DNA from: a virus | Virus record (IMG/VR): IMGVR_UViG_3300025536_000010 | Coordinates: 1-64,000 of that record | Reading direction: 5' to 3' (one strand) | DNA: 64,000 nt | Shown: positions 33,104 to 54,854 of the stretch, piece after piece | How the letters are laid out: the number at the start of each line of letters is the position of its first letter | Position numbering within the stretch: the first letter of the stretch is position 1 | Position numbers and translations under genes: made by a program | The notes under the pieces: generated by a model | Told to the model about the DNA's origin: nothing | What the model saw: only the letters and a program-made list of their open reading frames with translations | The model's database searches: none

Positions 33104-33111
33104 GAGCTACC

Positions 33112-39400: not shown

Positions 39401-39970
39401 TTGATCGAAGACCTGCTCAAGACCTACGCCTACAAGACGGGCGAGTTCACCCTCGCTTCGGGACAGACGTCCGACGAGTACCTGGACGTCAAGGAAGCCA
39501 TGCACCACCCCTACGCCGCGCGCCGGCTGGTACAGTGCGTGCTGGATGAGTTCGTCGGCACCGAGATCGCCCTGGCCGGCGTGGCGGACGGCAGCATCGC
39601 CATCGCCGCCGTTGCCGTCTACGTTCGCAACTTGTACTCGCCGCAATCGTGTCACCTGCTGACAATCCTCAAGGAGCGCAAGCAACACGGCACCAAACAG
39701 CAGATCGTGGGCCTGGACAACCTCAAGGATTTCAAGAACGACTACAGGTTCGTTGGGATCATTGAGGATGTCTGGACCACGGGCGAGTCGACGGCCAAGG
39801 CGATCCGCGCAGCTCAGGCGGAAGGATTGAACGTACGCCAGTGCGTGGCCGTCGTCGACCGCGAGGCGGGCGCTGTGGCGCGGCTGACGAAAGAGTTCCC
39901 CAAGATTGTCTTCTCCGGCGTTACGACGCTCAAGGCCGTCCGCGACGGCAAGCGCTGGCATGAGGGCTAA
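39401..39970 (+). CDS. pyrE: Orotate phosphoribosyltransferase
   Basis: The 189-residue protein has FTLASGQTSDEYLDVKEA (OPRTase start), the flexible loop KERKQHG with Lys and Arg contacting PRPP, and the PRPP motif IIEDVWTTGEST. It joins orotate to PRPP to make OMP, step 5 of UMP synthesis. It starts with TTG at 39401 with GGAG 9 bases upstream. Its last bases overlap a palindromic element. Confidence 0.9.
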   Translation: MIEDLLKTYAYKTGEFTLASGQTSDEYLDVKEAMHHPYAARRLVQCVLDEFVGTEIALAGVADGSIAIAAVAVYVRNLYSPQSCHLLTILKERKQHGTKQQIVGLDNLKDFKNDYRFVGIIEDVWTTGESTAKAIRAAQAEGLNVRQCVAVVDREAGAVARLTKEFPKIVFSGVTTLKAVRDGKRWHEG

Positions 39971-39984
39971 AAGCCGTTTTTGAG
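39967..39984. repeat. Dispersed near-palindrome, copy 5
   Basis: CTAAAAGCCGTTTTTGAG includes the pyrE stop codon and precedes a terminator. Confidence 0.65.
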
Positions 39985-39999
39985 AACACCGCTTCACAG

Positions 40000-40037
40000 A
40001 AAACCACCCTCCCTACGGAGAGGCGTGGTTTTTTTCT
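40000..40037 (+). terminator. Rho-independent terminator after pyrE
   Basis: An AACCAC...GTGGTT stem-loop (about 40002-40030) is followed by a run of seven T (40029-40035). It ends the pyrE transcript before the metacaspase gene. Confidence 0.75.
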
Positions 40038-40097
40038 TAGCTATTAGGTAGACTCGCATTTGATTCAGAGATGTCTCAAAGGCCAGGGAGGGCTACC

Positions 40098-40895
40098 ATG
40101 CCACGGCAGGCACTGTGCGTCGGCGTCAACTACGCCAACACCGAGTTCGAGCTGCGCGGCTGCGTCAACGACGCGAACGACTGGGCGCAGTTTTTCGACA
40201 AGCGCGGCTTCTCCACGTCCGTCCTGACCGAGAACCAGGCGACCCGCCAGAACATGCTCGCGGCGATGGAGAGCCTGGTGCGGCAACTGCAACCGGGTGA
40301 GATCGGGGCGATCCAGTTCAGCGGCCACGGCACCTGGCTGCCCGACCGAGACGGGGACGAACCGGATGGCCGAGACGAGGCCCTGGTGCCGCACGACGTC
40401 ACCGACGACGGCCGCGGCCTCATCATCGACGACGAGTTGCGTGTTATCTTCGGCCGGCTCCGCGAGGGCGCACGGCTCCTGTGGATCTCGGACTGCTGCC
40501 ACTCGGGTACGGCTTTCCGCTTCTTCGGCAACGGTGCCTCCAAACGCCGCGTACGCTTCTTGCCGCCGTCTCACTTCCTGGTCGATACCGGCCTGGTGCG
40601 TCGCATGGAGCGGGCCTACGGTCAACCGCCCAAGCGGACCAACGCAGCTCTACCTGGCGTTCTCCACCTTTCGGGCTGCCGCGATCACGAGTACAGCGCC
40701 GACGCCGAGATCGACGGCCGGTTCAGCGGGGCGTTATCCTACTACGCTTTGCTGGCGTTCAAGCAGGTAGTCCAGCAGAAGGGCACCTACCAGGACGTCC
40801 ACAAACTCGTCCGCCAGTACCTGCCCAGTTGGGACTTCCAGCAGACCCCGCAGCTGAATGGCGCGACGGCCTTGAAACGGACGCCGCTGTTCTAG
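40098..40895 (+). CDS. Metacaspase-like caspase-family protease
   Basis: The 265-residue protein starts RQALCVGVNYANTEFELRGCVNDANDWA and has the His motif QFSGHGTWLPDRDGDEPDG (H77) and the Cys motif LLWISDCCHSGTA (C133/C134, with C134 the nucleophile by the DxCHSG pattern). This is a complete catalytic dyad of the metacaspase/caspase p20 fold. It would cut after Arg or Lys if it follows metacaspases. The ribosome site is in a GGCC/GGCT hairpin with hexaloop AGGGAG. It has a terminator on both sides, so it is a separate transcription unit. Confidence 0.85.
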   Translation: MPRQALCVGVNYANTEFELRGCVNDANDWAQFFDKRGFSTSVLTENQATRQNMLAAMESLVRQLQPGEIGAIQFSGHGTWLPDRDGDEPDGRDEALVPHDVTDDGRGLIIDDELRVIFGRLREGARLLWISDCCHSGTAFRFFGNGASKRRVRFLPPSHFLVDTGLVRRMERAYGQPPKRTNAALPGVLHLSGCRDHEYSADAEIDGRFSGALSYYALLAFKQVVQQKGTYQDVHKLVRQYLPSWDFQQTPQLNGATALKRTPLF

Positions 40896-40928
40896 TACAC
40901 TCAGACCGTCTTGCCTCCTCTGTTCCAG

Positions 40929-40968
40929 CCTCGTCAGTGGGTCCGCCCCGCTGGCGAGGTTTTTCTTT
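40929..40968 (+). terminator. Rho-independent terminator after the metacaspase-like gene
   Basis: Stem CCTCGTCAG/CTGGCGAGG (40929-40937 and 40951-40959) with TTTTTCTTT after it. Confidence 0.85.
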
Positions 40969-40986
40969 GCGCCGGGCTAAATAAGC

Positions 40987-41026
40987 GGTAGGGTTGTGTC
41001 ACAATAAATGATGGGAATCCCTACCC
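40987..41026. promoter_or_regulatory. Inverted repeat in the intergenic space
   Basis: GGTAGGG at 40987-40993 and its complement at 41019-41025 enclose TTGTG-T-CACAA. The inner CACAATAAATGA resembles CACAATAAGTGA at about 35423, before the Spo11-like gene. It may be a promoter/operator pair, but no clear -10/-35 was placed. Confidence 0.4.
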
Positions 41027-41047
41027 TTTTATCCTGGAGAGCGCTAC

Positions 41048-41296
41048 ATGCCCGGCATCCTACTCTTCGTGGCCAGCAACGATGCCCCCAAGCCTAACAG
41101 GCGCTGCAAGCGCTGCTGCTGTCAGATCGACAAGGGGCTGTTCCTGTGCCTGTCTTGTGAGGAGGTCGTGGCCTACTGGAGTCAGCTGGGCGAGTGTCCT
41201 AACTGCACAGGTCACATCAACCAGGCACGCAAAAGTAAGTTTTGCCCGCACTGCGGCGTGCCTCTGCGTAACCCCAAACCGCGGAAGAAGCAGTAA
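41048..41296 (+). CDS. Zinc-ribbon protein
   Basis: The 82-residue product has repeated Cys pairs (CKRCCC, CLSC, CPNC, CPHCG), so one or two zinc ribbons are likely. Such phage proteins often act on transcription, but the role is not known. Confidence 0.65.
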   Translation: MPGILLFVASNDAPKPNRRCKRCCCQIDKGLFLCLSCEEVVAYWSQLGECPNCTGHINQARKSKFCPHCGVPLRNPKPRKKQ

Positions 41297-41332
41297 CTTT
41301 TCCCTGTTCCGTGTTCCCGAAAGGAGCGGTCG

Positions 41333-42340
41333 ATGTTTGACAACATGAGGCGCGTTCTGTGCGCGACCCACGACGGCATCTTCCACGCAGATGACGTTGT
41401 GTCTTTTGCCTTGTTGACGCTGCTGCACAGGTTTCTGCCGGGCTTCCCCACGCCGCAGCTAACCCGCACCCGCGACCCGAAAGTGCTGGGCGAGCAGCAC
41501 ATCGTTTTCGACGTCGGCGGGGAATATGAAGTCGTCCGCGCGCACAACGTCTACCGTCTCGATCATCATCAGCGCGGCGGCGCCGGGTTGCGGCCTAACG
41601 GCGTACCCTACGCCGCAGCGGGGCTGATGTGGAAGACGTTCGGCCTCGAACTCTGTGGGGCAATGGCTGCGGAGCACGCCCTGTCCGTGCTGCACGACAA
41701 CGCCGTGTTCGAGAAGTTCGATCAGCAGTTCATTCAGCCGATTGACGCGAACGACTGCGGCTTCGAGATGGCCAGGGACTGGGAAGTACCGACGCTGCGC
41801 CCGCTTACGCTCAGCAGCATCATCTCTGGGTTCAACCCACGTTGGGATGAGGACATGTCGGCCGCCGAATCGCTGCGCAGGTTTGGCGCGGCAGCACAGG
41901 TGGCGCGTACGAGCATCGAACACGCGCTGGGCGGCATGCTGGCGGCGAAGAAGGCTGCGGACATCGTCCGCGACAGCGACCGCGTTTTCGCTGACAAGGT
42001 ACTGGCGCTTGGGCGTTTTTGTCCGTGGACCGAAGCCGTCCTGGAGAACGTAACCATGACCGACATCTTGTACGTCGTCTACAAACAGCCGGGCGAGGGG
42101 CAGCCGACCTGGATGGTTCAGTGCGTGCCGTGCTCGCTGGGCTCGTTCAGCAAGCGGAAGGCCCTGCCCGAGCCGTGGGCTGGGCTCCGCAGCAAGGAGG
42201 AGACGAAGGGCGACGGCCCGACCATCGAGGCCGTCAGCGGTGTCGCGGACGCCGTTTTCTGTCATCCAGGCCGCTTTATCTGCGGTGCGAAGTCCAAGGC
42301 CGGCGCTCTCAAGCTCGCTGAGATCGCGGTTATGACGTAA
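41333..42340 (+). CDS. MYG1/GAMM1-family (DHH-like) hydrolase
   Basis: The 335-residue protein matches the UPF0160/MYG1 pattern: CATHDGIFHADDVVSFALL with the metal-binding H and DD, FDVGGEYE, YRLDHHQ with DHH, and a late FCHPGRFICGAKS. Family members are metal-dependent exonucleases or RNases acting on small RNA or DNA ends. The ATG at 41333 has AAAGGAG upstream. It is followed by a strong terminator. Confidence 0.85.
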   Translation: MFDNMRRVLCATHDGIFHADDVVSFALLTLLHRFLPGFPTPQLTRTRDPKVLGEQHIVFDVGGEYEVVRAHNVYRLDHHQRGGAGLRPNGVPYAAAGLMWKTFGLELCGAMAAEHALSVLHDNAVFEKFDQQFIQPIDANDCGFEMARDWEVPTLRPLTLSSIISGFNPRWDEDMSAAESLRRFGAAAQVARTSIEHALGGMLAAKKAADIVRDSDRVFADKVLALGRFCPWTEAVLENVTMTDILYVVYKQPGEGQPTWMVQCVPCSLGSFSKRKALPEPWAGLRSKEETKGDGPTIEAVSGVADAVFCHPGRFICGAKSKAGALKLAEIAVMT

Positions 42341-42379
42341 CCTGCACGAGCCACCCCACCTGCTACGGGGACCGGCTCG

Positions 42380-42434
42380 GCAGGCAGACAACGAGGCGCT
42401 TCATGCGCCCTTAGTTGTCTGCCTGCTTTTCTTT
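42380..42434 (+). terminator. Strong terminator with nested hairpin
   Basis: Perfect 13-bp stem (42380-42392 with 42414-42426) followed by TTTTCTTT; the loop itself contains GGCGC/GCGCC. It separates the MYG1-like gene from the next operon. Confidence 0.9.
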
Positions 42435-42497
42435 ACCCATCACCCGGATTTGAGTACCATCGAAGTAGTGACCACCCCACTTCCTATGGAGATCCCG

Positions 42498-43124
42498 ATG
42501 GTCATGGAACGACCGCTACGGGAGTTTTTGGCGGCAGTCGACAGTCGGAAGCCATTCGCACTGAGCCGCTGGGGGGAGCACGAATGGCACTGCATCTTCG
42601 GCGAGCGAAACGGCTTCATTCCGCCAGACGGGCACGGGTATTTCCCGGCCCTCTGCCGCGACCTGACGGCCGTGCTGCATAGTCGACCAGATTACCGCCT
42701 GGGTATCCCTGCCGAAGCCTACAGCGACCGGGTGCGCAGCTATATCGACGGCTGCGCTCTGGACGATCTGGATTGGCAAGTCGACGTCCTCAAACTCACA
42801 CACGTCGATCAACTGTTAGGGCTGGTCGGGGCCGTATCGCGCGTGCCCCTGTTGGTGGTCGGCCCGCCGCGCCTGCGTAAGTCAAAAGCGCTCCTGCGCT
42901 GGCGGGCCTTCGTAGACGTGCCGCCGCGGAACTCGTACTTGTGCCGCGACGACATAGTTCGTAACGTGTTGGCTGCTTTGGAGGACTTCAAGGTGCCCGC
43001 TCTGGTATCGGTATCGGCCGGTGTCACGGCACCGCTAATCATCAACGACCTCGCCCGTCGTCCCGGAGGCTGCCGGCATCAGCTGGTCGACTTCGGCTCG
43101 CTCTGGGAGTCCTTCGGCGGCTAA
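42498..43124 (+). CDS. GT-D-fold glycosyltransferase-like protein
   Basis: The 208-residue product has ALSRWGEHEWHCIFGERNG at the place of the GT-D motif (R-x-G-x-x-E), then LGIPAEAYSDRVRSY and a Cys/Asp-containing C-terminus. GT-D enzymes build capsule or O-antigen sugars. The ATG at 42498 has GGAG upstream; 42486 or TTG 42450 are alternatives. Confidence 0.5.
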   Translation: MVMERPLREFLAAVDSRKPFALSRWGEHEWHCIFGERNGFIPPDGHGYFPALCRDLTAVLHSRPDYRLGIPAEAYSDRVRSYIDGCALDDLDWQVDVLKLTHVDQLLGLVGAVSRVPLLVVGPPRLRKSKALLRWRAFVDVPPRNSYLCRDDIVRNVLAALEDFKVPALVSVSAGVTAPLIINDLARRPGGCRHQLVDFGSLWESFGG

Positions 43125-43141
43125 GCAAGGAGGTGTGCGTA

Positions 43142-43324
43142 ATGACCGATCAAGTCCCGCTGGCGGACGTGATTAACCTACTCTGGCGACAGGGACAGAA
43201 ACGGGTCGAGAACAACCAAGCGAAGACCAAGGACGGGGCGGCCGAGCCGACGTGGCCCACGCCCGCCGACCCACCAACCGTTATCACCCGGCCGGAGCAT
43301 CGCCCAAAGGTGCAAGGCACATGA
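43142..43324 (+). CDS. Small Pro/Lys-rich protein
   Basis: The 60-residue product is helical then Pro/Thr-rich. No family known. It has AAGGAGG upstream and an ATGA overlap with the next gene. Confidence 0.5.
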   Translation: MTDQVPLADVINLLWRQGQKRVENNQAKTKDGAAEPTWPTPADPPTVITRPEHRPKVQGT

Positions 43325-43632
43325 ACGACAGGAAGTTCAAAAAGTCGCTGGCCAACCCGAACTCTTACGGGAACCGGAAGGCCGCGAAGAAGGCCGCCAA
43401 GCAGGACGCGAAACGGGAGAAGAAGGAGCTTCGCAAAACCTACCCCGGGTGGTTCAAGGTAACCGGCCAGGCCATCTGCGGGTGTTGCGAGGCCGTCCTC
43501 TACTACGAAACCCGCGCTCGGGCCGAGGCCGCGTGCAAGAAAGTCACCAACAAGCACGCGCTCATGGTAGACGACGCCGGGAACGAAGAGATGGTGGACG
43601 GCTTTTACGGTTTCACAGTGGAGCAAGTATGA
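43321..43632 (+). CDS. Basic hypothetical protein with Cys pair
   Basis: The 103-residue product is Lys/Ala-rich at first (KAAKKAAKQDAKREKKELRK) and has CGCC in the middle. It may bind nucleic acid. Its stop overlaps pyrF (ATGA). Confidence 0.55.
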   Translation: MNDRKFKKSLANPNSYGNRKAAKKAAKQDAKREKKELRKTYPGWFKVTGQAICGCCEAVLYYETRARAEAACKKVTNKHALMVDDAGNEEMVDGFYGFTVEQV

Positions 43633-44279
43633 GCAAGATTATCGTCGCCCTGGACGGCATGACCTGGAGCAAGAGCCTGCACATGGCCATGCAACTCAAG
43701 GAGTGCGTCTGGGGGTTCAAGCTGAACGACCTCCTGCTGGAGTATGGCGTCAGCGCCGTCCGGGAGTTCAAAAAAGTCGGGCCGGTCATGGCCGACCCCA
43801 AACTCCACGATATTCCCAACACGGTCGGTAACGGCGTCCGCCGGCTGCACGCGGCCGGTGCCGACCTCATCACGGTCCATGCCTCCGGCGGCCTGGACAT
43901 GCTCACCAACGCGGTTGCCCTGGCCGGCGAGGCGAAGATCCTGGCGGTCACCGTACTGACCAGCCTGAACGACCACGGCTGCGAGTACAGCTACGGCGGC
44001 AACGTCCGCAACACGGTTCGCCGGTTTATGGACCTGGCCAACCGCGCCGGCGTCGCAGGCGTAGTCTGCTCGCCGCAGGAGGAAGACCTGGCCGCCGAGG
44101 TGCCGAATCTCATCAAGGTAGTCCCCGGCATCCGCCTACCCGATCAGCGCGTCGACGACCAGGCACGCACCGGGCTGCCGAAGTGGGCCAACTACGTCGT
44201 GGTTGGTCGACCCATCACGCAGGCCGCGGACCCCATCGCCGCGGCGCACGAGATCAACAAGGCCCTGGAGGCAGCATGA
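43629..44279 (+). CDS. pyrF: Orotidine-5'-phosphate decarboxylase
   Basis: The 216-residue protein has all of the OMPDC catalytic set: D9 in VALDG, K31 in GFKLND, and the D56-x-K58-x-x-D61 tetrad in MADPKLHDIP, with the same spacing as known enzymes. The phosphate-binding end VVGRPITQAADP is present. It decarboxylates OMP to UMP, the last step. Its stop overlaps pyrC (ATGA), giving a pyrF-pyrC pair. Confidence 0.95.
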   Translation: MSKIIVALDGMTWSKSLHMAMQLKECVWGFKLNDLLLEYGVSAVREFKKVGPVMADPKLHDIPNTVGNGVRRLHAAGADLITVHASGGLDMLTNAVALAGEAKILAVTVLTSLNDHGCEYSYGGNVRNTVRRFMDLANRAGVAGVVCSPQEEDLAAEVPNLIKVVPGIRLPDQRVDDQARTGLPKWANYVVVGRPITQAADPIAAAHEINKALEAA

Positions 44280-45460
44280 AGAAGCTCGACCCAGACACCC
44301 TGCCGGAGACGTTCGAGATCCCGGCCATGTTCGATGCCCACGTTCACTTCCGCGAACGCGAGGCGCTTTACGTCCTGGTCCCGCAAACCGCCCGGGTGTG
44401 CGACCGCGCGCTGGTGATGCCCAACACCAGCACGCCCATTACCGATGGCAGGCTCGCCAAGACCTACCGCGAGTGCATCGTGCAGGTTGCCGAGGAGGCC
44501 GGCTTCCCGGACTTCAACCCGCTGATGACGCTCTACCTGGAACCGGACACGCCTTACCGAACGATCCAGGAGGCCGTCCGGCTGTGCGGTAAGCACCTGG
44601 CCGGCGTGAAAATCTACCCCAAGGGCGGCACGACCAACAGCGACAAGGGCATCCCTATCGACTGGCTGTACAAGCCTGGCGTGCAGGACCACGTCAACTC
44701 GATGCCGCCCTGGCTCCGCGATACCTTGAAAGCCATCGCGGGCGAGGGCCTGGTACTCAACGTCCACGGCGAAGACCCCGAACAGGAACTGCTCGAACGC
44801 GAAGGTAAGTTCATGTGGTCGGGGTTCGCCGAGTGGTATCTGGAGACGCACAAGGGAGCCCGCCTGGTCCTGGAGCATGTATCAACCGACTCGGGCTTGG
44901 ACCTGGTTGACCGTCTGGCCAAGAAAGGGCACCAGATCGCGGCGTCTCTAACGCTGCACCACTGCTACGACACTGTCGACAACGCTTATCGACAGTGCCA
45001 CAACTGCTGCTGGCCGCCGCCGAACTACCGCCGACATCGGGACGCGGTGCGGGCCAAGGCCCAGTGCGCCTTTACGGTCAACCCCACAGACGCGCTCGTG
45101 TTCCTGGGGAGCGATACGGCCGCGCACACGGTCGCGTCCAAAGAGCGAGCCGTTTGTGCCTGCGGCGACTATACGGCGCCGCTGCTGGCCGAGAAGTTGG
45201 CTGAGATGTTCGCCGAGCCGTCGTGGATCGACATGGGCCGGACGCTGCCGTCGCATGAGCGGCGGATGACCGTGTTCACCAGCACCAATGCCGCGGCGTT
45301 CTACAACGTCGAGGGCTCAGGACGGAAAATCCACCTGGTCAAGCGCCCGTGGACCGTACCACAACGGATGCACGGCGTCGTGCCGTGGCAAGCAGGCAAG
45401 GAAGTGCTGTATCGCGTGGAAGGAGAACCGCGATGGCTCAAGACGGGGGACTGGTTATGA
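44276..45460 (+). CDS. pyrC: Dihydroorotase (class II, PyrC type)
   Basis: The 394-residue protein has HVH (H22, H24) in DAHVHFRE, the carbamylated Lys site KIYPKGGTTNSDKG (K112), NVHGE, LEHVST, and LGSDTAAHTVASKERA with CGCA-like ACGDYTAP, all typical of E. coli-type dihydroorotase. It closes carbamoyl-aspartate to dihydroorotate, step 3. It has a C-terminal extension beyond the usual 350 residues. It overlaps the next gene by 28 bases. Confidence 0.95.
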   Translation: MKKLDPDTLPETFEIPAMFDAHVHFREREALYVLVPQTARVCDRALVMPNTSTPITDGRLAKTYRECIVQVAEEAGFPDFNPLMTLYLEPDTPYRTIQEAVRLCGKHLAGVKIYPKGGTTNSDKGIPIDWLYKPGVQDHVNSMPPWLRDTLKAIAGEGLVLNVHGEDPEQELLEREGKFMWSGFAEWYLETHKGARLVLEHVSTDSGLDLVDRLAKKGHQIAASLTLHHCYDTVDNAYRQCHNCCWPPPNYRRHRDAVRAKAQCAFTVNPTDALVFLGSDTAAHTVASKERAVCACGDYTAPLLAEKLAEMFAEPSWIDMGRTLPSHERRMTVFTSTNAAAFYNVEGSGRKIHLVKRPWTVPQRMHGVVPWQAGKEVLYRVEGEPRWLKTGDWL

Positions 45461-45804
45461 AAGCCGTCCAGGACGAACTCGACAAGGGCATGGCGCGTCT
45501 GTTGAGTGATGCCGGCATCGACCCGGAAGACCGCGACATGGTCAGTGAGGCCGCTGCGGCTTTGCGGGAGTACGAGCGGCGGGAGGCGTACTGGGGGCAG
45601 TTCGCTGGGCGGGCGCAGCCAATGCCGGACATCACCAAGCTAACGACGGACATAAAACAGCTGTGCCAGCGCCTGTCTGCGGTGCTCGGTGTCACCCTAC
45701 CGCGGAACCCGTTTTTCGACACGCAACTGGGCGAGTCCCACGTTCCAAAAAACGGCTTTGAGGAGTGCGATACCCCCGTTGTTGTGACCGTGGAAAAATC
45801 TTGA
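45433..45804 (+). CDS. Helical hypothetical protein after pyrC
   Basis: The 123-residue product is helical and acidic. The ATG at 45433 has AAGGAGAACCG upstream; ATG 45457 overlaps the pyrC stop and is the alternative. It contains an intragenic palindrome at 45745-45762. Confidence 0.55.
   Translation: MAQDGGLVMKAVQDELDKGMARLLSDAGIDPEDRDMVSEAAAALREYERREAYWGQFAGRAQPMPDITKLTTDIKQLCQRLSAVLGVTLPRNPFFDTQLGESHVPKNGFEECDTPVVVTVEKS
45745..45762. repeat. Dispersed near-palindrome, intragenic copy
   Basis: CCAAAAAACGGCTTTGAG lies within the coding region of the gene at 45433. Confidence 0.45.
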
Positions 45805-45823
45805 AAATCTTTGAACCCGGTGC

Positions 45824-45852
45824 TTGACAGGGGTCAAACCCTGGCATAACCT
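45824..45852 (+). promoter_or_regulatory. Sigma70-like promoter with operator-like repeat
   Basis: TTGACA (45824-45829), 17-bp spacer, TAACCT (45847-45852). The -35 lies in TTGAC-AGGG-GTCAA, a perfect 5-bp inverted repeat, which suggests repression at the -35. Confidence 0.7.
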
Positions 45853-46065
45853 ATCATCTGGTGCGACTGACTGGGCGACGGTTGCGCCGGACAGGCCGGC
45901 AGCGACTGGCACCGGGAAAGATAGCTCAACCTGACGGTAGCGGCCACCGTGCCGTGGGGCGACCTCAAAAATCGAACCACGAACGCGGAGGACGCCGCCG
46001 GTAGGCTGGGCCTTCTGGAACGGTGTCCGTCGCTGCCGGCCTGCTCTTTTGCGCCCGGAGCAAAC
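45853..46065 (+). other. Long mRNA leader
   Basis: About 210 bases separate the promoter from the next ATG. The stretch is GC-rich with several GC stems, but I see no gene, tRNA or known riboswitch in it. A tRNA-like D-loop string near 45936 has no matching acceptor or T-arm. Confidence 0.4.
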
Positions 46066-46992
46066 ATGGAAGACTTCCTCAAGCATCTCGCCTGGGTTGG
46101 ACCCCTGGCGGTCATGGCCCTTGTGGGCCTCCTGGCGGCTCTACGCCGCGTCATTGAGCGGAAGAAGGCCCAGAAGCCTACCTTGCCGCCCGAGAGGCTT
46201 AGGCAGCCTCCCAGAGCCATTTCCAAGCAGCCTGTCGATTACGACGCCCCGCCTTTCCCGCCGGCCGAACTGAGGACCGAGGAACGGCCCGGGGAGCGCC
46301 GCCGCCTGACCAAGGAAGAGGCTGCGATCCACGACGCCATGACAGTAGCAACCAAGGCCGCTGACGCTGGCGAGCCGGCTGAGCGCTTTATGGTTCCGAT
46401 CACCGGCCCCCAGGCCGGCAGCGTCGTCCAGCTGGGCAAGACCGAGTACATCGAGAAGCCTGTGGAGGGTGAGCGAGACGCCAGGGCAGACGTGCAGATG
46501 CCTGGCGATCTCGAACAGAAGCCCATCGACGACGGCAGCAGTTCGGCGATGCGGTACGCTCGCCGTCAGGGGCGCATCGGTGAGGACGGCAGTGTCGACC
46601 ACGGTGGCGGCGTCACGTCACACCCGCTGCGGCCTGGCGAGGTGACGGAGCGCATCGACGGCTACCAGCAGTACCTGGCCAAGCTGAACACCAAGGCCGA
46701 TGCAGCCTTCGCGGAAGAGTTGGTCATGATTAAACGGGACGCCGAGTGCCTGGCCCGCCACAAGTTCCTGACGCCCGAACGCAAAGCGCAGCTGCTTGCC
46801 CAGGAGCGGATCGAAGCGCCAGAGGAACACCGCGACCCCAGGCCCGACGACGAGGTTATCGAAGCGTTCGTGGCTCACTGTGTCCAGGCAGCCGTCGACC
46901 AGGCCAAAGGCATCTATGCTTCGCCCAACCCCGACCTCTTGAAGAAAGTCACGCCTGAGCGGATCAGGTCTGGGCAGTTTTTCTCGCACTGA
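46066..46992 (+). CDS. Membrane-anchored hypothetical protein
   Basis: The 308-residue product has one N-terminal membrane segment (about residues 9-26) and a long charged, partly disordered cytoplasmic-type domain. No family recognised. GGAG lies 6 bases upstream. Confidence 0.6.
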   Translation: MEDFLKHLAWVGPLAVMALVGLLAALRRVIERKKAQKPTLPPERLRQPPRAISKQPVDYDAPPFPPAELRTEERPGERRRLTKEEAAIHDAMTVATKAADAGEPAERFMVPITGPQAGSVVQLGKTEYIEKPVEGERDARADVQMPGDLEQKPIDDGSSSAMRYARRQGRIGEDGSVDHGGGVTSHPLRPGEVTERIDGYQQYLAKLNTKADAAFAEELVMIKRDAECLARHKFLTPERKAQLLAQERIEAPEEHRDPRPDDEVIEAFVAHCVQAAVDQAKGIYASPNPDLLKKVTPERIRSGQFFSH

Positions 46993-46998
46993 TCTCCC

Positions 46999-47041: not shown

Positions 47042-47052
47042 TCGCAATCGGG

Positions 47053-47082: not shown

Positions 47083-47285
47083 TGGCCGCAGTCCAATATC
47101 TCGACACACGCGGTACGGAAGCCTCGGTCGAGCCGCATGGCAATGAGGCTGTGCGTCGGTTGGAGCCGCTAACGAAGTCCTTTTCGGACTCAGGCCCGTT
47201 CCCGACGCTCTCTACTTCCAATGCTGCGCCTACACGGTCGCCGTGCAGGCTTTGCTCGGCTTCCGCCGCATGGGAGGACAAAGCA
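47083..47285 (+). other. 200-base leader before the GT2 gene
   Basis: The frame of the next gene is open here but no ribosome site supports an earlier start. It contains AGTCC/GGACT and CACGG/CCGTG hairpins. No separate gene is seen. Confidence 0.4.
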
Positions 47286-48353
47286 ATGGCTGACGGGCAG
47301 CGTATCGCTGGTACAGCGCGCATCCCCGTTGCAGAGATGGCCAAAGACAATCTGCAACACATTTTCCCCCACCTTACGCCCGAACAGATCGAGGCGATGA
47401 AAGCCGGCAAGCCGGTCCCGCCGTCGCCGGATTGGCAAGGCAGTACGACAGCGCCAGTCTCCAGCGGTGCAGCGTGCGAGATCCCGCGTCGGCAAGAGCC
47501 AGAAGCCGCTCAGGTCGACCTGACGGGCTTGCCGGCTCCGGTTATCGCGGAGAACGAGCACCTGCCGCTGGTGACCTGCATTCTCGTTTTTGGCATCCGC
47601 GAGCGGTTGCGGATGGCGCGCAAGGCGGTCAACCAGTTCGTCCGTCAGCATTACCCGCGCAAGCAGTTGGTGATCGTCAACACCACCGACCTCGACGTCA
47701 CCAACCGGCCGCACCCGGCGATCAAGGAGCGCAAGGTCTTCACCGGGCAAAAGCTGCCGACCGGACAGATGCGCAACCAGGGCATGGACCTGGCGGACGG
47801 CGACTGGATCGTGCCTTGCTGGGACGATGACGACTACTACGATCCCTGGCGGCTCGTCTACCAGATGTGTCTCCGGCGTCCCGGGCACGCGGTCCTGCTG
47901 ACGAACCAGATCCGCGTCCACATCGACAGCACTACGGCGTTCATGCACCACCAGGCCGAGGGCATCCCGAACACGATGCTCGTCCCGAACCTGCCCGAGA
48001 CGCGCTTCGACGAGGAGGCGCAGATCGGCGAAGACCTGGCGTTCTGGATGAAGCACTACGGCGTCAAAACGGTCATCGCCAACAACGTCGAGTTCCCGCT
48101 CAATCATCTCTCGATGGCCGCCTACCACGGCCACAACATTACGCCGGTCGGCGAGTTCATGCGCGGCTATCACGGACCCGAGCACCAGGGGCACATTTAT
48201 CTGCCCCCGGAAGAGATCGACAACCTGCGCACTATCCTCAGCGACTTTGGCGTGCAACTGTCTACGACGCCTCCGGGGGAGGCGTCTGGCGACCAAGGTC
48301 CGGCAGGCTCGCCAGAGCCCGCTGAGACGAGCGAGGTCGCCATTCTCTCCTAG
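47286..48353 (+). CDS. Family 2 glycosyltransferase
   Basis: The 355-residue protein has an N-terminal helical region of about 90 residues, then PLVTCILVFGIRERLRMARKAVNQFVRQHYP and GDWIVPCWDDDDYYDPWRL with DDDD as the metal site. The C-terminal tail is disordered. ATG 47286 is chosen for GGGAGG 9 bases upstream. Confidence 0.85.
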   Translation: MADGQRIAGTARIPVAEMAKDNLQHIFPHLTPEQIEAMKAGKPVPPSPDWQGSTTAPVSSGAACEIPRRQEPEAAQVDLTGLPAPVIAENEHLPLVTCILVFGIRERLRMARKAVNQFVRQHYPRKQLVIVNTTDLDVTNRPHPAIKERKVFTGQKLPTGQMRNQGMDLADGDWIVPCWDDDDYYDPWRLVYQMCLRRPGHAVLLTNQIRVHIDSTTAFMHHQAEGIPNTMLVPNLPETRFDEEAQIGEDLAFWMKHYGVKTVIANNVEFPLNHLSMAAYHGHNITPVGEFMRGYHGPEHQGHIYLPPEEIDNLRTILSDFGVQLSTTPPGEASGDQGPAGSPEPAETSEVAILS

Positions 48354-48380
48354 TCCGTCCCAGTGGCAGAAAGGGCAGGT

Positions 48381-49178
48381 ATGAGCATCGTGGCGCAAAG
48401 CCAGGGCGTCCTGAACTTCGTCGTTACGGGTGAGATCAGGAGCGGCGCCTCCGTCGTGCAATCGAGTATCGACGGACGAGCCGACTGTGTCTGCCATGCA
48501 GACCTGTTCCACCCGGACGACGCCGTGCGGCGAGAAGCCCATGAGGGCTACTTCGGCCCCAGCAAAGACCCGGAACGGATGCCCGAGTGGTTCAAGGATG
48601 GCGAGACGGTGCCTTTCCAGTACATCAACCACGCGGTACTGGACAACCCCATGCAAGGAGAATGCGCAGTCGGTTTCAAAGTTTTGTACCCGGCTGTGCG
48701 CAGGTGGGAACTGTTTGAGTTGTTTGAAGAACGGTGCCGAGAAGGTGATTTCTGTTTGGTGCATGTCGCTCGAAACCCGGTGGCCTGTTTCGTAAGTCTC
48801 AAGCAGGCCGAGCAGTCTGGTGTGTGGGCGCGGGGCTGGAACAGCTTGCGGCAAACAAGCTGCCCCAGCGCCGTCACCGTGGATGCAGGCGAGTTGATAG
48901 CGTTCTGTCGCAACCACGCCTCTCTCTACGGCAAAATCCGTGCCGCATGTAAGGACTCCTTGGAAATCTCCTACCGGGACGTACTGCTCGACTACCAGGA
49001 CACCATGCGGAAGGTGTTTAAGTTCCTGGAACTCCCCGAGTCCGACGAGCCAGCCGTGCCCGGCTGCCGCCGGCTCAAGAACCGGGACATATTGGCAAGG
49101 ATCGCTAACCTGAACCGGCTGCGCAGCGAGGTGCCTTCGGACATCCGCGCGCTGCTGGACGACGAGGAGTTACTCTGA
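48381..49178 (+). CDS. Sulfotransferase-like protein
   Basis: The 265-residue protein has FVVTGEIRSGASVVQSSID where the 5'-phosphosulfate loop is expected, VHVARNPVACFVSLKQAEQSGVW for the 3'-phosphate part, and SYRDVLLDYQDTMRKVFKFLEL, the usual end of PAPS-dependent sulfotransferases (Stf0-like). It may sulfate a glycan. The loop has a Glu-Ile-Arg variant, so activity is not certain. Confidence 0.75.
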   Translation: MSIVAQSQGVLNFVVTGEIRSGASVVQSSIDGRADCVCHADLFHPDDAVRREAHEGYFGPSKDPERMPEWFKDGETVPFQYINHAVLDNPMQGECAVGFKVLYPAVRRWELFELFEERCREGDFCLVHVARNPVACFVSLKQAEQSGVWARGWNSLRQTSCPSAVTVDAGELIAFCRNHASLYGKIRAACKDSLEISYRDVLLDYQDTMRKVFKFLELPESDEPAVPGCRRLKNRDILARIANLNRLRSEVPSDIRALLDDEELL

Positions 49179-49705
49179 TGCGCCGCAACCGCGCGCTGTG
49201 GTGGTCTATCGTTTCCCTGGTCGCCGGCATCGCCACCAGCATTGCGCTAGTGGCGGTGGTGACGCACCCGGAACCCAGACCACCGGCCGCGGCGCAGCGC
49301 AGCGAACTGCCGCACGTCGAACAGGGCACAGAACCGGCCGCAGCCGGTCCCCGGCGTATGCCGGTGGCCGGGGCGCCGGGATACTGGGTCGTGGTCAACA
49401 CGGACGGTTCGAGCTATCTGGAAGGACCGGACGGTCAGCGCACAGCGCTGGCCGCTGCCGGCCCTTCGGTCCCGGAGCAGCGCGTCGCCGACGCCATCGC
49501 TAAACGACTTGCCAAGACCCCCGAGAAACGTAAGGGCCTGGGCCAGTTGGTGGTGTGCGATAGTGGCGTGGTGGATGTGCCGAAAGACGCCATCATCACG
49601 TTCGTCGGTGTCGACAAAGTCGTCACCCTCGATCCGAACGATGGTTCTTCGACGGCCCACTACGTCGATGGTCGCGTGCAGCGCCGGGAGCGTGTGGAGC
49701 GTTAG
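49178..49705 (+). CDS. Membrane-anchored hypothetical protein
   Basis: The 175-residue product has an N-terminal membrane segment (residues 8-28), a Pro/Ala-rich linker and a beta-rich end. Function unknown. Its start shares a base with the previous stop. Confidence 0.55.
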   Translation: MRRNRALWWSIVSLVAGIATSIALVAVVTHPEPRPPAAAQRSELPHVEQGTEPAAAGPRRMPVAGAPGYWVVVNTDGSSYLEGPDGQRTALAAAGPSVPEQRVADAIAKRLAKTPEKRKGLGQLVVCDSGVVDVPKDAIITFVGVDKVVTLDPNDGSSTAHYVDGRVQRRERVER

Positions 49706-49762
49706 GTCACGGTGGCCTAATGCTGCGCGATGCAAGGAATATCCCTGGAAGGAGTGCTCTCC

Positions 49763-50317
49763 ATGTCCCTTAGCACGGTTGCTGCGATCATCGTCCAGAC
49801 CCCGAAGGTGTTCAGCTGGCTGGGTCACATGCCCGTCATGACCTGGTCCCTCAACCAACTGCTCGAAGTCCGCGGCGTCGACCGGATCGTCTGCGTCGCG
49901 GTCCCCGATCTTGCTGCCCGCGCCGGGCGGATACTGGTCAAGGACGAGATCGAGGTGACCACCATCCCCGACAACGTGAAAGACCAGACCACGCTGCACA
50001 AATGGTTGTGCGCTGCCAACGGTCCCGCGGCCACGGCTGACGTCCTGGTTGCCATCAAGCCGACCGCGCCGTTTTTGCCCTCCGCCAAGATCGAGGCGTG
50101 CCTGCACAAGGTCAAGCGCTGCAAGAACTGCGATCATTGCACGCTGCACCGCTACGCCACTGTTGACAGCCTCCAAGTCTTTAAGGTACAGGCAGTGATC
50201 GAATCCGTGGCGCTCCAGCGGGCCGCGGTGCCGGTGAGTCTGATCGAGTCGCTCGACGTCACCGACCCCGAAGGGCTCCGCGTGGCCACCGCCCTGGTCG
50301 TTAGCGGCACGGCTTGA
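49763..50317 (+). CDS. Nucleotidyltransferase-like protein (CMP-sugar synthetase type)
   Basis: The 184-residue product has VAAIIVQTPKVFSWLGHMPVMTWSLNQLLE, VLVAIKPTAPFLPSAKIEACL and IESLDVTDPEGLRVA, the order of CMP-KDO/CMP-NeuNAc synthetases, but the N-terminal Arg-x-x-SKR-type loop is degraded (QTPKVF). It may be a non-canonical activating enzyme or a regulator. ATG 49763 has GGAAGGAG upstream. A TTAGGTC/GGCCTAA hairpin lies at 49704-49722. Confidence 0.55.
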   Translation: MSLSTVAAIIVQTPKVFSWLGHMPVMTWSLNQLLEVRGVDRIVCVAVPDLAARAGRILVKDEIEVTTIPDNVKDQTTLHKWLCAANGPAATADVLVAIKPTAPFLPSAKIEACLHKVKRCKNCDHCTLHRYATVDSLQVFKVQAVIESVALQRAAVPVSLIESLDVTDPEGLRVATALVVSGTA

Positions 50318-50356
50318 CCGTTTCCCCGGAAGCCAGCATTCAGGAAGGATAGCTCA

Positions 50357-51277
50357 ATGGCCGAACTACCGCTCGTCTCTTGCCTGTGCGCCAGCAGCCC
50401 CAAACGGTGGGCGCAGTTGCAGCGGGCCATCCTGGACTTCACCAGGCAGACCTACCCGAACAAGGAACTCATCATCGGCGTTGACCTGCGCACAGACTTC
50501 GCCGGCATGATCGAATTGTTCGTGGAAGACGCGCTGGCCAGCGTGCCGCCGACGCGCGTGCATGATGGCGAGCGGATCATCCGCGACCTGCCCTACCGGA
50601 TCAAAGTGTTCGGCCGCCCCAACAGTAACTCGCCGATGGACTGCCTGATCCAGGCGCTCTGTCACGCCCGCGGCGACATCGTTGCCCTTTGGGACGACGA
50701 TAACCTCAACCTGCCGAGCCGCTTGACGGATCAGGTGGTTCGGCAGCAACGGCACCAGGATACACTCACGGCGCTCTCGGAATGCCTGTACTACTTCCAC
50801 GAGAGCAAAGAGTTGTTCGTGGTGAACCACGAAAACCCGGAGGCCGAGGTCAGCGAGCGCATCGCTATCTCGTCGCTCATGAGCCCGCGCGACGCGCTGC
50901 CAGCGTTGGAGCCGCACTATCGAACCAACCCAGCGTTGCACTTGGTCAACGGCCTCCAGGCGCGCAACCGCAAACTGCTGGGCATCACCGGCAAGCCGTT
51001 TCACCACCTAGTCGGCGTGTCGGGCGACAACCTGCGCGGCTACAGCGACCATCGTAAAATCGCGCAGGGTCACTCGCGTTCGGCGGACTGGATCAATGAG
51101 CGCGCGGATGCGCTTGTTGAAGCGCTGAACCAGTATTACTGGGACGCGGACAAAGTGAACGTCGTGGGCGCGGATGCCCTGGCGTTTGAGTACACCCCCA
51201 AGCTACGACATTCCAAAGACCTCTACGAAATCGCTATCAAGGACGCCGAAGCCGAAGAGGTCGTCAGAGAGGATTGA
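50357..51277 (+). CDS. Family 2 glycosyltransferase
   Basis: The 306-residue protein opens LPLVSCLCASSPKRWAQLQRAILDFTRQTYPNKELIIG and has GDIVALWDDDNLNLPSRL with WDDDN as metal site. The tail is helical. GGAAGGA lies upstream. Confidence 0.85.
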   Translation: MAELPLVSCLCASSPKRWAQLQRAILDFTRQTYPNKELIIGVDLRTDFAGMIELFVEDALASVPPTRVHDGERIIRDLPYRIKVFGRPNSNSPMDCLIQALCHARGDIVALWDDDNLNLPSRLTDQVVRQQRHQDTLTALSECLYYFHESKELFVVNHENPEAEVSERIAISSLMSPRDALPALEPHYRTNPALHLVNGLQARNRKLLGITGKPFHHLVGVSGDNLRGYSDHRKIAQGHSRSADWINERADALVEALNQYYWDADKVNVVGADALAFEYTPKLRHSKDLYEIAIKDAEAEEVVRED

Positions 51278-51293
51278 CCATGCCAATGATCGC

Positions 51294-51309
51294 TGTCCAA
51301 GGAGGGACA
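51294..51309 (+). promoter_or_regulatory. Shine-Dalgarno hexaloop hairpin of the LuxR-type gene
   Basis: TGTCC/GGACA (51294-51298 and 51305-51309) close the hexaloop AAGGAG, 4 bases before ATG 51313. The C-G closed A-A-GGA-G loop is the geometry of CsrA sites. Confidence 0.65.
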
Positions 51310-51312
51310 CGA

Positions 51313-51525
51313 ATGAGCGCTCCCACCAATCTGAGCGAGCGCGAGCGGGACGTCCTGCACGGTATCGTGGAGGACAAAACCTACCGAGAGATCGCGGCCG
51401 GCATGGGCGTCTCTACCGAGACGGTGAAAACCTATGCCAACCGCCTCCGGCGCAAGCTCGGCATCAACAGCAAGACGGGGCTGGCTTTGTGGGCCGCCTC
51501 ACACCTAGACGCCTATGGGTTTTGA
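51313..51525 (+). CDS. LuxR-type HTH DNA-binding protein
   Basis: The 70-residue product is almost only a GerE/LuxR HTH: LSERERDVLHGIVEDKTYREIAAGMGVSTETVKTYANRLRRKLGINSKTGLALWA. With no receiver domain it should act as a constitutive DNA-binding regulator. It is likely under CsrA-type translational control. It is a candidate binder of the palindromic element. Confidence 0.9.
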   Translation: MSAPTNLSERERDVLHGIVEDKTYREIAAGMGVSTETVKTYANRLRRKLGINSKTGLALWAASHLDAYGF

Positions 51526-51528
51526 ACC

Positions 51529-52026
51529 ATGTGGACCATTTTGAAAAATATCACGGACTGGACGCAGTACCAGGGGACCGCTGCTCGGCAGCTGCATCTG
51601 GTCGGCGTGCAGATCGAGTGGGGCAAAGGTCCGAAAGAGTTCCCCTGCCTGGTCACCACTTATTGCCCCGACCCGGCCCCTGGTAAGCAGCCGACTCTCA
51701 TCTCCGCGTACGTCTATCAGTCGGACGCAGAGGCCCTGCTCAAGGCCGCTGGCGTGACCACGGCACCGCCCAGCACAGAGCGTGCAGCACTCCCGCCCGG
51801 CGTCGTCGACGCCAAGCAGGCTCAGTTCAACCGCTGGGTGTCGGCCCACCTGCTGGCGCTGGTGCAGCAGCTGGTCGACCGTAAAGAAGTGTTCAGCCGC
51901 AAGGACTATGAAGAGAGCCTGGATGAGGGGCTCGACGCCGTGCGGCACTGGGGTAACGCGGCGGCGCGCAAGATCCTCTCCGAAGACCAACGTACTCTGC
52001 TGGATCGGCTCGAACCGCCTGGGTAA
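51529..52026 (+). CDS. Hypothetical protein
   Basis: The 165-residue product has a beta-rich first half and a helical second half. No family recognised. It starts 3 bases after the LuxR-type gene. Confidence 0.55.
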   Translation: MWTILKNITDWTQYQGTAARQLHLVGVQIEWGKGPKEFPCLVTTYCPDPAPGKQPTLISAYVYQSDAEALLKAAGVTTAPPSTERAALPPGVVDAKQAQFNRWVSAHLLALVQQLVDRKEVFSRKDYEESLDEGLDAVRHWGNAAARKILSEDQRTLLDRLEPPG

Positions 52027-52050
52027 AATACCTTCAACACAGAGCCCGTC

Positions 52051-52068
52051 CTAAAAGCCGGTTTTTGG
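52051..52068. repeat. Dispersed near-palindrome, copy 6
   Basis: CTAAAAGCCGGTTTTTGG, the most symmetrical copy, overlaps the GGAGG region before the next gene. Confidence 0.7.
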
Positions 52069-52110
52069 AGGCTGAGCGCAATGCGGGACGGTTTCTGGAG
52101 GAGGTTACTC

Positions 52111-53985
52111 ATGCCCTGGCAATCGGAAGCGGACTTCGTCAAAACTGCTGGGCAGTCTGGCCACGCCGGGCTGCCCAACAAACACATCCACGTCGACACG
52201 GCCAAACAGCCCTCCGTCTCCGAACAGACGGAGGGTCAGCTGTACTCCGACATCGTCGCCAAGTTAATCGACGTCGAGCCGCGCATGTGCTGCCCTAACT
52301 GCGGCGCACGCGCACACGACATCAAAGACGGTGGCCAGGTTTACACCCGCGACATCTTGGAGTCGGGCGGGAAAACACACAAGGGCGACATCCCCAAGTG
52401 TCCGATCCCCGGCCTGGACATCCCGACGATGGCATACACGGTTAGTCCGTGCGGCTGCCGCGTAAGCGTGGAATGGGCCGGGGCGTTCGCGGCCGAACTC
52501 CAGAGCCGCCTGGGTGGCAGTAAACCGGCCCCCATCATCGGCGTCACGCCCAAACAGCGTGAGTTCAAACTGAACAAGCTGGAGGCGGACCTGGCGAGGC
52601 TCTACGCTCTCCAAGACAAAGCAACCGGCGCGCAGAAAGAGGCCGTCGACTACTGGATCGTGGTCGTCGCTGACCAGATCCAGCGGCTCTGTCCCGGCAA
52701 ACACAACCAGCAACCGTTGCCGAAGAAACTGGAGCCCGAAGTGATCCAGTGGGCCGTCAAAAACGCGCACAGTCAGCCGACCGCGCAGGTCACGACGACG
52801 CCCTACTACCCGTTGTTGGCAAGCCAGGGCGGTGCGCTACCGGCGGGTACGCCGCTTTACCAGAGCGCGAGCGGAGCCATGAGCACCGTACCTGTTTACA
52901 GCGGACAAAAACCAGCCGGACACTACGCAGTGCCCGGCCACCCGAACCCTACGGAGCAAACCGACGAGCATCCGAACTGGTCGGCTTGGGGTTACCCGCC
53001 AGGCTACAAGATGCCCAAGAACCTTGGGGTCGCCGCGCGCGTGGCGCAGGACAAGCTGGCAAACACCACGGCGAATCAGGCGGACGCACTGGCCCTGGCG
53101 ATACAGATGACGCAAGCTGGCATAATGAGTGCCACCAGCGTCGGCAAACTGGTCGGCGTCGACCTCGGCAAGGAGAAAACACAGTTCGTGAAGGGTAACG
53201 TCGGCAAAGTCCACAGCGTCAACGTCTACGTTATCCACGGTGAGTACGTCGTGCGGATCGAGACGGAGGCGTTCGAGCCCGTCGAGCGCAAGTTTGGCTC
53301 CCTGGCTGCGTGCATTGCCTACGCCAAACAGCTGAACGACAACCGACACACCAATCCTATCCTGGGTGCGGTGGCTGAGTTGCTATCGCGGCGTTTGAGC
53401 GAGATCCAAAACGCCCAGAAGGCGGCCAACCTGACGAACACGTCGGGTGTACCGCCGTTCAAGACGACCAAATTCACGCCGTCGCCGAACAAGGTCGTCC
53501 TGCACGGAGCCAACGCCGAAGAAACGTCGGTCTATGCGAAAGCAGCGTCGTCGCTGGACGAGATGCTCGGTGCGCTGGGCGTCCCGACCATCGTGCCGGG
53601 ACAGCCGGCGGCGACTCAATACACACCGGCCGACGTCAAGAAGATCCTGAGCTACTTCACCACGCACCAGGGCACCATCTACGGCGTCGTTAGTCAGTAC
53701 CTGCTACCGGCCGGCAGCGCTACGCCGACACTCACGTTGCTGGAGACGGTCGACGAGATCGCTAACAACTTGCGGCAGCACACCGAGAAAGGTATGTCCC
53801 TATCGGCGCTGTCCAAGCAGTTCCTTACGGCCTGGCGGCAGGCAATCGAGATCGGGAAGAAACTCCTCCCCGACGTCCAGGAGGTTGATGCGCCCGCGCC
53901 TACCACAACGCCGGCCCCGCAGCGGGTCGACGTCCGCGGGAAGCGGAAGCGGCGGACTATCCGCCAGATCGAGGATAACGAATGA
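52111..53985 (+). CDS. Large hypothetical protein with Cys clusters
   Basis: The 624-residue protein opens PWQSEADFVKTAGQ, has CCPNCGA and CPIPG/CGCR Cys groups in the first 150 residues (zinc-ribbon-like), a Pro/Tyr/Gln-rich middle, and a helical C-terminus ending in basic residues. ATG 52111 has GGAGGAGG 7 bases upstream; ATG 52081 is an alternative. The stop overlaps the pyrD-like gene (ATGA). Confidence 0.6.
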   Translation: MPWQSEADFVKTAGQSGHAGLPNKHIHVDTAKQPSVSEQTEGQLYSDIVAKLIDVEPRMCCPNCGARAHDIKDGGQVYTRDILESGGKTHKGDIPKCPIPGLDIPTMAYTVSPCGCRVSVEWAGAFAAELQSRLGGSKPAPIIGVTPKQREFKLNKLEADLARLYALQDKATGAQKEAVDYWIVVVADQIQRLCPGKHNQQPLPKKLEPEVIQWAVKNAHSQPTAQVTTTPYYPLLASQGGALPAGTPLYQSASGAMSTVPVYSGQKPAGHYAVPGHPNPTEQTDEHPNWSAWGYPPGYKMPKNLGVAARVAQDKLANTTANQADALALAIQMTQAGIMSATSVGKLVGVDLGKEKTQFVKGNVGKVHSVNVYVIHGEYVVRIETEAFEPVERKFGSLAACIAYAKQLNDNRHTNPILGAVAELLSRRLSEIQNAQKAANLTNTSGVPPFKTTKFTPSPNKVVLHGANAEETSVYAKAASSLDEMLGALGVPTIVPGQPAATQYTPADVKKILSYFTTHQGTIYGVVSQYLLPAGSATPTLTLLETVDEIANNLRQHTEKGMSLSALSKQFLTAWRQAIEIGKKLLPDVQEVDAPAPTTTPAPQRVDVRGKRKRRTIRQIEDNE

Positions 53986-54854
53986 TCGAGAAACTCATTA
54001 TCGGAGCCCCGTTCGGGAACTATCTGCACTTCGCCTACACCACGCCGACCCTGGGCACTTACACCAGTTACTACCGGGGCGGCTTCTGGAAGCGCGTGTG
54101 GCGCGTGCTGACGACGGTGCGCTACTATCCAGGCATCCAAGCCTGGAAAAACAAACTGGGCCTGCCTAACCCCAGCATCCGGCGGCTGACCGAACTGTGT
54201 GGGCCGCCGGCGCACAGCCATATCAGGGCGACCACGCCGCCCAAGCTGATCGTCAAGGACAAGATCGTTTCGGTCACCGGACACAACGACGTACAGTGGG
54301 AGACAGTGATCGTCACGGCGGCTGACGCCAAACCAGCCATGATTGAGATGAACGTGGGCTGCCCCAACTGCCCAGGCGACGACGCTACGCAGGATTATCC
54401 CAAGGTGTTCGCCTGGGCGTCGGAATACTGTTTTCGCAAACAGGTGCCGCTCTGTCTCAAACTGCCGCCGGTCAGCTTCATGCGGATCGTCCGGCAGGCC
54501 GTCGACGGCGGCATTTGCCGCTTCCACTGCTGCAACACGTTACCCACGCCTGGCGGTGGGATGTCGGGCAAGCCGCTCAAGCCCCTGGCCCTCCAGGCGA
54601 GCGAGTATGTACGGAACTACTGCTACGCCCGCAGCTACGCCCTGGACATGCTGATTGGCGGCGGCGGGGTCACACACGCCCAGGACGCGCAGGACTTCCT
54701 CGGCGTGGGCTGTACCAACGTGGCCGTGGCCTCCGTTTTGTTCAACCCGCTCAACTGGCCGCGGGTCCGCCGGATCGCTCACGACCTCTACCTGCGAGAC
54801 GCCCCGCCGCCGCAACCGGCACCGGCGGTCAAGGACGTCGAGCAGCTGCTTTGA
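53982..54854 (+). CDS. pyrD: Dihydroorotate dehydrogenase-like protein
   Basis: The 290-residue product has KLGLPNPS (FMN-site pattern of DHODH, GLxNPG), MNVGCPNCPG, LKLPP with the FMN Lys, NTLPTPGGGMSGKPLKPLAL (the GGxSGxxLKP loop) and LIGGGGV followed by VGCTNVAVAS. This fits class 1 DHODH. It should oxidise dihydroorotate to orotate, step 4; the catalytic base and electron acceptor are not clear from sequence. It completes the PyrC-D-E-F set in this window. Confidence 0.8.
   Translation: MIEKLIIGAPFGNYLHFAYTTPTLGTYTSYYRGGFWKRVWRVLTTVRYYPGIQAWKNKLGLPNPSIRRLTELCGPPAHSHIRATTPPKLIVKDKIVSVTGHNDVQWETVIVTAADAKPAMIEMNVGCPNCPGDDATQDYPKVFAWASEYCFRKQVPLCLKLPPVSFMRIVRQAVDGGICRFHCCNTLPTPGGGMSGKPLKPLALQASEYVRNYCYARSYALDMLIGGGGVTHAQDAQDFLGVGCTNVAVASVLFNPLNWPRVRRIAHDLYLRDAPPPQPAPAVKDVEQLL

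Follow-up and report, generated by a model that had tools for sequence, protein, structure and literature searches.

Candidate genes for four steps of de novo UMP synthesis in a tailed jumbo phage

The pyr genes of the window

The present study concerns a window of 64,000 nucleotides (bases 1-64000 of the 234,886-bp IMG/VR virus record IMGVR_UViG_3300025536_000010), which belongs to a tailed jumbo phage and contains four genes resembling those for the lower branch of de novo uridine monophosphate (UMP) synthesis. All four open reading frames named in the original prediction, which had been made from the sequence alone, were confirmed at their starts (39401, 43629, 44276 and 53982); they correspond to pyrE, pyrF, pyrC and a dihydroorotate dehydrogenase (DHODH)-like gene, hereafter pyrD-like, all on the plus strand. 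The four genes run without stops or frameshifts, have their own ribosome-binding sites, and are typical of the record in GC content, GC content at third codon positions (GC3) and Shine-Dalgarno signals. They lie, as had been predicted, in separate units with pyrF and pyrC coupled, the pyrC start overlapping the pyrF stop by 4 bp (ATGA). Judging from these sequences, we consider it likely that the lower branch of the pathway encoded by this phage works and that its genes entered the genome one or two at a time.

PyrF (orotidine 5'-monophosphate (OMP) decarboxylase, 216 aa, 43629..44279) matches Pfam PF00215 (OMPdecase) with an E value of 1e-38 and scores 121.7 bits against TIGR01740, above the cut-off of 92.3. 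It has all catalytic residues in common with the cellular enzymes, namely K31 and D56-x-K58-x-x-D61, and it keeps the phosphate-binding R169 and R194. Its relatives, retrieved via short exact patterns, are proteins of Candidate Phyla Radiation (CPR) bacteria at 39-42% identity, the nearest cellular one found being a Parcubacteria PyrF at 42%, and of viral contigs at 41-43%. In the tree, viral PyrFs are scattered over several places, and the window PyrF stands on its own branch between the CPR/phage group and the remaining cellular PyrFs.

PyrC (394 aa, 44276..45460) is a dihydroorotase (DHOase) of type II, the E. coli-like type (TIGR00856, E 3e-51; 174 bits against a curated cut-off of 293, which is reached by other viral PyrCs, G009, G018 and L203). 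The metal ligands H22, H24, K112, H164, H201 and D280 are kept, as are the substrate residues R26, N50 and H284 and the TT loop T119-T120. With E. coli PyrC it shares the fold, the binuclear metal site with its Lys and the substrate residues, and differs from it in an extra C-terminal part and in an identity of only ~25-30%; its AlphaFold model, built with a viral alignment as input, matches an E. coli-type DHOase with a TM-score of 0.85 by target.

PyrE (189 aa, 39401..39970) is an orotate phosphoribosyltransferase (OPRT)-like protein with a TTG start preceded by GGAG, matching TIGR00336 with an E value of 5e-27 (94.7 bits, curated cut-off 106.8). It keeps the motifs SGQTSDEYLD and DREAG, the catalytic loop KERKQHG (K91, K94, H96) and the phosphoribosyl pyrophosphate (PRPP) loop IIEDVWTTGES (E122, D123), the two loops conforming to the KxxKxHG and EDxxTTG patterns of the enzyme. 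A relative at 34% identity is encoded by LR756511, a 595-kb phage that we take to be one of the huge-phage genomes of Al-Shayeb et al.

On full alignment, the catalytic residues seen earlier in PyrC, PyrE and PyrF thus hold; those of the DHODH-like protein do so incompletely, the position of class 1 Lys43 being occupied by Gly.

A viral family of DHODH-like proteins

The PyrD-like protein (290 aa, 53982..54854) matches Pfam PF01180 (DHO_dh) above the cut-off (E 9e-14), and its AlphaFold model, again with viral alignment input, matches class 1 DHODH, with L. lactis DHODB (1ep1) as best fold match (E 2e-11). A profile-guided scan of IMG/VR placed it in a viral family present on at least 123 contigs, from which 80 proteins forming 42 clusters at 90% identity were kept. 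Residues N57, N124, C127, N129, K160 and N185 are conserved in all 80. In class 1 enzymes these positions hold orotate (Asn), act as base (Cys) and touch flavin mononucleotide (FMN; Lys), so that the window protein has the four orotate-binding Asn and the catalytic Cys, with K160 at the place of the FMN-contacting Lys164 and the glycine-rich phosphate loop present as GGxSG and GGGG. Its own motif reads NVGCPN, with Gly where the relatives carry Ser (NxSCPN). The comparison with L. lactis PyrDA and PyrDB has two sides: the orotate Asn, the Cys base, the FMN Lys and GGxSG are in common, whereas the viral proteins, of 234-290 aa, have Gly for Lys43 and a shortened N-terminus with APFGN and GT[YFW]T, of which PFGN is conserved in all 80. 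Class 1 enzymes pass their electrons to fumarate (1A) or, with PyrK, to NAD (1B); a PyrK-like gene did not stand out in the sequences that were read, though no search aimed at PyrK was run.

Among 50,697 GenBank phage records, LR756511 gave the sole convincing match, its PyrD-like protein belonging to this same family; contigs of faecal phages added four matches, weak and partial, and there was none among 72,556 plasmids. The family is thus large and, within the IMG/VR, GenBank phage and plasmid sets searched, found almost only in viruses. Its best PHROG, 14943, is labelled 'unknown function', and widespread as the family is, it has no name in the literature that we found.

PyrD is the least secure of the four steps. 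The alternative that survives best, though we hold it to be unlikely, is that PyrC, PyrE and PyrF work while the PyrD-like protein carries out some other flavin reaction, such as the reduction of a pyrimidine base, with step 4 left to the host PyrD. It would account for the Gly at the position aligned with Lys43 (G25 in the window protein, Gly in 80 of 80 relatives, in a part of the alignment that is less certain because it adjoins the missing segment), for an N-terminus truncated relative to class 1 enzymes and for a weak match to PreA, a dihydropyrimidine dehydrogenase. The confidence of the model is only moderate (pLDDT 73), and a look within 4 kb of most of the 80 loci turned up no further pyr gene, so that the function of most marine members is a putative one, read from their sequence. 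DHODH profiles nevertheless outscore PreA, and the NxSCPN motif including its fourth Asn, which to our knowledge dihydropyrimidine dehydrogenases lack, is kept in 80 of 80; moreover, overlapping or adjoining pyrD-pyrC, pyrF-pyrD and pyrD-pyrF pairs occur in viruses.

Several observations were made at these loci in passing. An NMNAT-like nucleotidyltransferase, so named from its sequence, lies directly upstream of two viral pyrD-pyrF loci (L027, 7719-8120; L029, 9012-9413). Small proteins with an orotate-phosphoribosyltransferase-like motif stand near viral PyrD in L188 (5934-6470; the type recurs in four clusters) and L030 (8579-9004; no profile match), and may be divergent viral PyrEs. One hit of the PyrD query (L011) was dropped as spurious, being a short C-terminal stretch inside a structural gene.

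Steps before and after the encoded branch

The lack of aspartate transcarbamylase (ATCase) and carbamoyl-phosphate synthase, earlier stated for the window, extends to the whole record: no pyrB, carA, carB, pyrG or pyrH was detected in it with profiles of ATCase/OTCase, CarA, CarB and CTP synthase and of the amino-acid kinases, to which UMP kinase belongs, all of which were positive in 14 of 14 control genomes. Accordingly, the phage would enter the pathway at carbamoyl-aspartate and hand over UMP. Further downstream, the class II ribonucleotide reductase (RNR) that had been proposed at 59445 is borne out as a B12-dependent ribonucleoside-triphosphate reductase of RTPR type with an ATP cone (59445..61811, plus strand; TIGR02505 E 3e-57, PF03477 E 3e-16, phrog_367 E 9e-128). 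Its total score lies under the curated RTPR cut-off, and it keeps the active site NPCAEI (NxCxE) and the C-terminal cysteine pair in CTGDLC. A dCTP deaminase (record position 176941) and ThyX (218402) are also encoded, and a possible dNMP kinase is weakly suggested at 204796. A link from the phage pyr genes through RNR toward DNA precursors is plausible.

Nucleotide-sugar demand may be another use for UMP. The stronger proposal, that the added UMP goes chiefly into nucleotide sugars for a large glycosylation and surface programme and not into DNA, appears to us unlikely. It can point to the position of the pyr genes among glycosyltransferase-, sulfotransferase- and cytidylyltransferase-like genes (the last by a weak IspD-type match at 49763) and to HldE-like halves at record positions 187666 and 188721; however, RNR, dCTP deaminase and ThyX are found in the same phage, and a sister case (G001, below) carries PyrD-PyrC together with ThyX and RNR.

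As separate observations, a run of glycosyltransferase- and methyltransferase-like genes, recognised by sequence, occupies 24783-33834 of the window, with more at 47-51 kb, and could be a UDP/CMP sugar drain; the HldE-like kinase and nucleotidyltransferase, likewise recognised by sequence and present as two separate genes at record 187666-189257 (L008 7666-9257), suggest phage-made ADP-heptose. Close to the RNR gene, at 57260-58453 of the window, an inorganic-pyrophosphatase-like domain (PF18823, E 2e-48) is fused to a HAD-type domain.

pyr genes in other viral records and the origin of the set

The view in the original prediction that the genes were gathered over time gains support from other viral contigs, which differ in the subset of genes they hold, in gene order and in enzyme class. 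In G001 (IMG/VR 3300039451_000027), a complete 97-kb phage (97,311 bp, with a 147-bp end repeat, terminase and major head protein), the viral DHODH gene overlaps pyrC, with ThyX ~3 kb beyond and RNR also present. The DHODH gene follows pyrF in G002 and overlaps it in G004 and G006; G007 encodes DHODH and an RNR, together with a small protein that carries a phosphoribosyltransferase-like motif but matches no profile. A 430-kb contig with terminase (G008) encodes PyrC and PyrE together with a class 1 DHODH that retains the usual Lys, and in a 126-kb contig (L203) PyrC overlaps a class 2 DHODH. PyrC and PyrF lie ~5 kb apart in G018 (197 kb, terminase), PyrF-PyrE pairs occur in G010 and G013, both of these proteins are encoded by G019 (436 kb), and LR756511 combines DHODH and PyrE with a genuine ATCase that scores above its cut-off. 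The subsets seen in unrelated viral contigs thus comprise pyrD-pyrC, pyrF-pyrD, pyrD-pyrF, pyrF-pyrE, pyrC+F, pyrC+D+E and pyrB+D+E; among the viral records examined, all four of PyrC, PyrD, PyrE and PyrF were found in the window phage only. Since enzyme classes at one step and pairings both differ, phages would have assembled the pathway on several separate occasions, and large phages seem to have done so piece by piece.

Records of doubtful viral origin were not counted. In Pseudomonas phage Y5, 'Acinetobacter phage MD-2021a' and several Listeria, Enterococcus and Staphylococcus records, pyrC or pyrF lies in sequence that seems bacterial or contaminated (the Y5 PyrC groups with bacterial PyrCs in the tree). 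Five contigs with PyrF that stem from isolate genomes (L037, L040, L044, L046, L050) resemble the edges of prophages and seem to carry bacterial pyr genes, L046 having the bacterial layout PyrK-PyrD-PyrF. G014, with DHOase, class 2 DHODH and PyrF, lends weak support only, because a phage hallmark was not confirmed there.

The PyrF tree has viral PyrFs in several places. The PyrC tree cannot place the window protein, because its branch, among viral PyrCs and apart from bacterial ones, is very long. Taken together, the PyrF relationships and the long viral PyrC branch make it unlikely that the four genes are a single bacterial operon transferred whole. That they are recent host captures decaying without a role we regard as highly improbable: the very long PyrC branch and the two proteins under curated cut-offs could be so read, but the frames are open, the catalytic residues are preserved and no close relative from cells turned up. 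The best matches reach 42% for PyrF (CPR bacteria) and ~30% for PyrC (plasmids), and plasmids gave none for PyrD. More broadly, and tentatively, large phages may keep and exchange a pyrimidine module of viral lineage rather than take fresh host copies. The hallmark of such a module would be a minimal viral DHODH whose active site was rebuilt around the loss of Lys43, possibly with a new electron acceptor. The module would have spread among marine and huge phages, every one adding the pyr steps that its own host cannot reliably supply; the window phage is the fullest case found.

The record as a phage genome

The record carries a large terminase gene (169999-172389; phrog_675, E 7e-39) and encodes a DnaB-type helicase, a baseplate wedge protein and a DNA polymerase, and its major head and tail genes match phrog_2522 and phrog_6, as expected of a tailed phage. 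Simple gene calling predicted 262 genes, which cover 93% of the record. The first and last 131 bases are identical bar one base, an end repeat from which the record is probably a complete genome, though IMG/VR does not class it as circular. No near relative among GenBank phages was found by megablast of 24 kb. That this unannotated metagenomic record could be a bacterial chromosome or a chimeric assembly is scarcely credible in view of the phage genes just named, the end repeat, the uniform composition and the placement of 259 of the 262 genes on the plus strand. Also observed, at record 66967-73787 (L002 6967-13787), were RNA polymerase beta-like subunits divided among several genes, with an intein-like C-terminal edge at 72027.

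A probable phage-encoded route from carbamoyl-aspartate to UMP

Starting from what is seen directly, namely the genes, their residues and folds, the absence of steps 1-2 and the recurrence in other viruses, we infer catalysis and flux as follows. Host CarAB and PyrB would provide carbamoyl-aspartate, which phage PyrC would convert into dihydroorotate; the viral PyrD-like flavoenzyme would oxidize this to orotate, passing electrons to a presumed acceptor; phage PyrE would join orotate and PRPP to OMP, and phage PyrF would decarboxylate OMP to UMP. Conversion to UTP and CTP could then fall to UMP kinase, NDK and CTP synthase of the host, and from there phage class II RNR, dCTP deaminase and ThyX would lead to dCTP and dTTP. 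The presumable benefit is a phage-controlled UMP supply for a large replication effort, insulated from host pyr feedback control or from a shut-down induced by infection.

It is known that phages enhance the end of nucleotide synthesis, through RNR, thymidylate synthase and kinases; a phage owning all four steps between carbamoyl-aspartate and UMP would govern its pyrimidine supply from a point much earlier in the pathway. This matters for the question whether UMP starvation of phages is a host defence. Lactococcus is reported to curtail its UMP pathway in the first minutes after infection (PMC10986495), and this offers a motive for phage-owned pyr genes.

Several points weigh against a working branch, in addition to those set out for PyrD. 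The four genes do not form one operon, and PyrE and PyrC, whose matches are far beyond chance, score under their curated cut-offs and are thus divergent family members. Furthermore, the host may need no help with its pyrimidines.

De novo purine and pyrimidine genes are already reported, in general terms, in many huge phages (Al-Shayeb et al. 2020, PMC7162821). What the window phage shares with those phages is a large genome that carries genes for de novo nucleotide biosynthesis; the difference is that the main text of that study makes a general statement, naming no enzymes and describing neither a four-step run nor a viral PyrD family. Cyanophages are known to carry pyrE, and marine viromes are enriched in it (PMC4022391, PMC9146016). 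Such pyrE genes, including that of P-SSM7, are likewise phage OPRTs for step 5; unlike in the window phage, they stand for a single step, without reported pyrC, pyrD or pyrF companions. A comparative study of 224 jumbo phages (PMC7824862) mentions neither orotate nor dihydroorotate, and in the literature we found no description of phage PyrC, PyrD and PyrF as a set, of a four-step run or of the viral PyrD family.

Neighbouring genes

All neighbours described here lie in the window. The plus-strand gene at 38518..39396, whose product has no Pfam match, ends 4 bp upstream of pyrE and is probably co-transcribed with it; a GroES-like co-chaperonin, by sequence, is encoded at 37740-38141. Directly downstream of pyrE, at 40098-40895, there is a caspase-like Peptidase_C14 protein (E 5e-23), possibly a metacaspase. 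A CAP-domain protein (20287-20859) lies 19 kb from pyrE, while its homologue adjoins pyrE in LR756511 (L012 7584-8111). A small protein gene (43321..43632, plus strand) overlaps the pyrF start by 4 bp, and ~1.3 kb before the pyrF region, at 41333-42340, stands a MYG1-type exonuclease family protein (PF03690, E 7e-67), unusual for a phage. The start of pyrD-like is likewise overlapped by 4 bp, by the gene of a 624-aa protein (52111..53985, plus strand). Finally, a protein without PHROG match at 3326-4603 has a tubulin/FtsZ-like glycine motif (GAGQGGSRIANSF) and could be a PhuZ-like filament.

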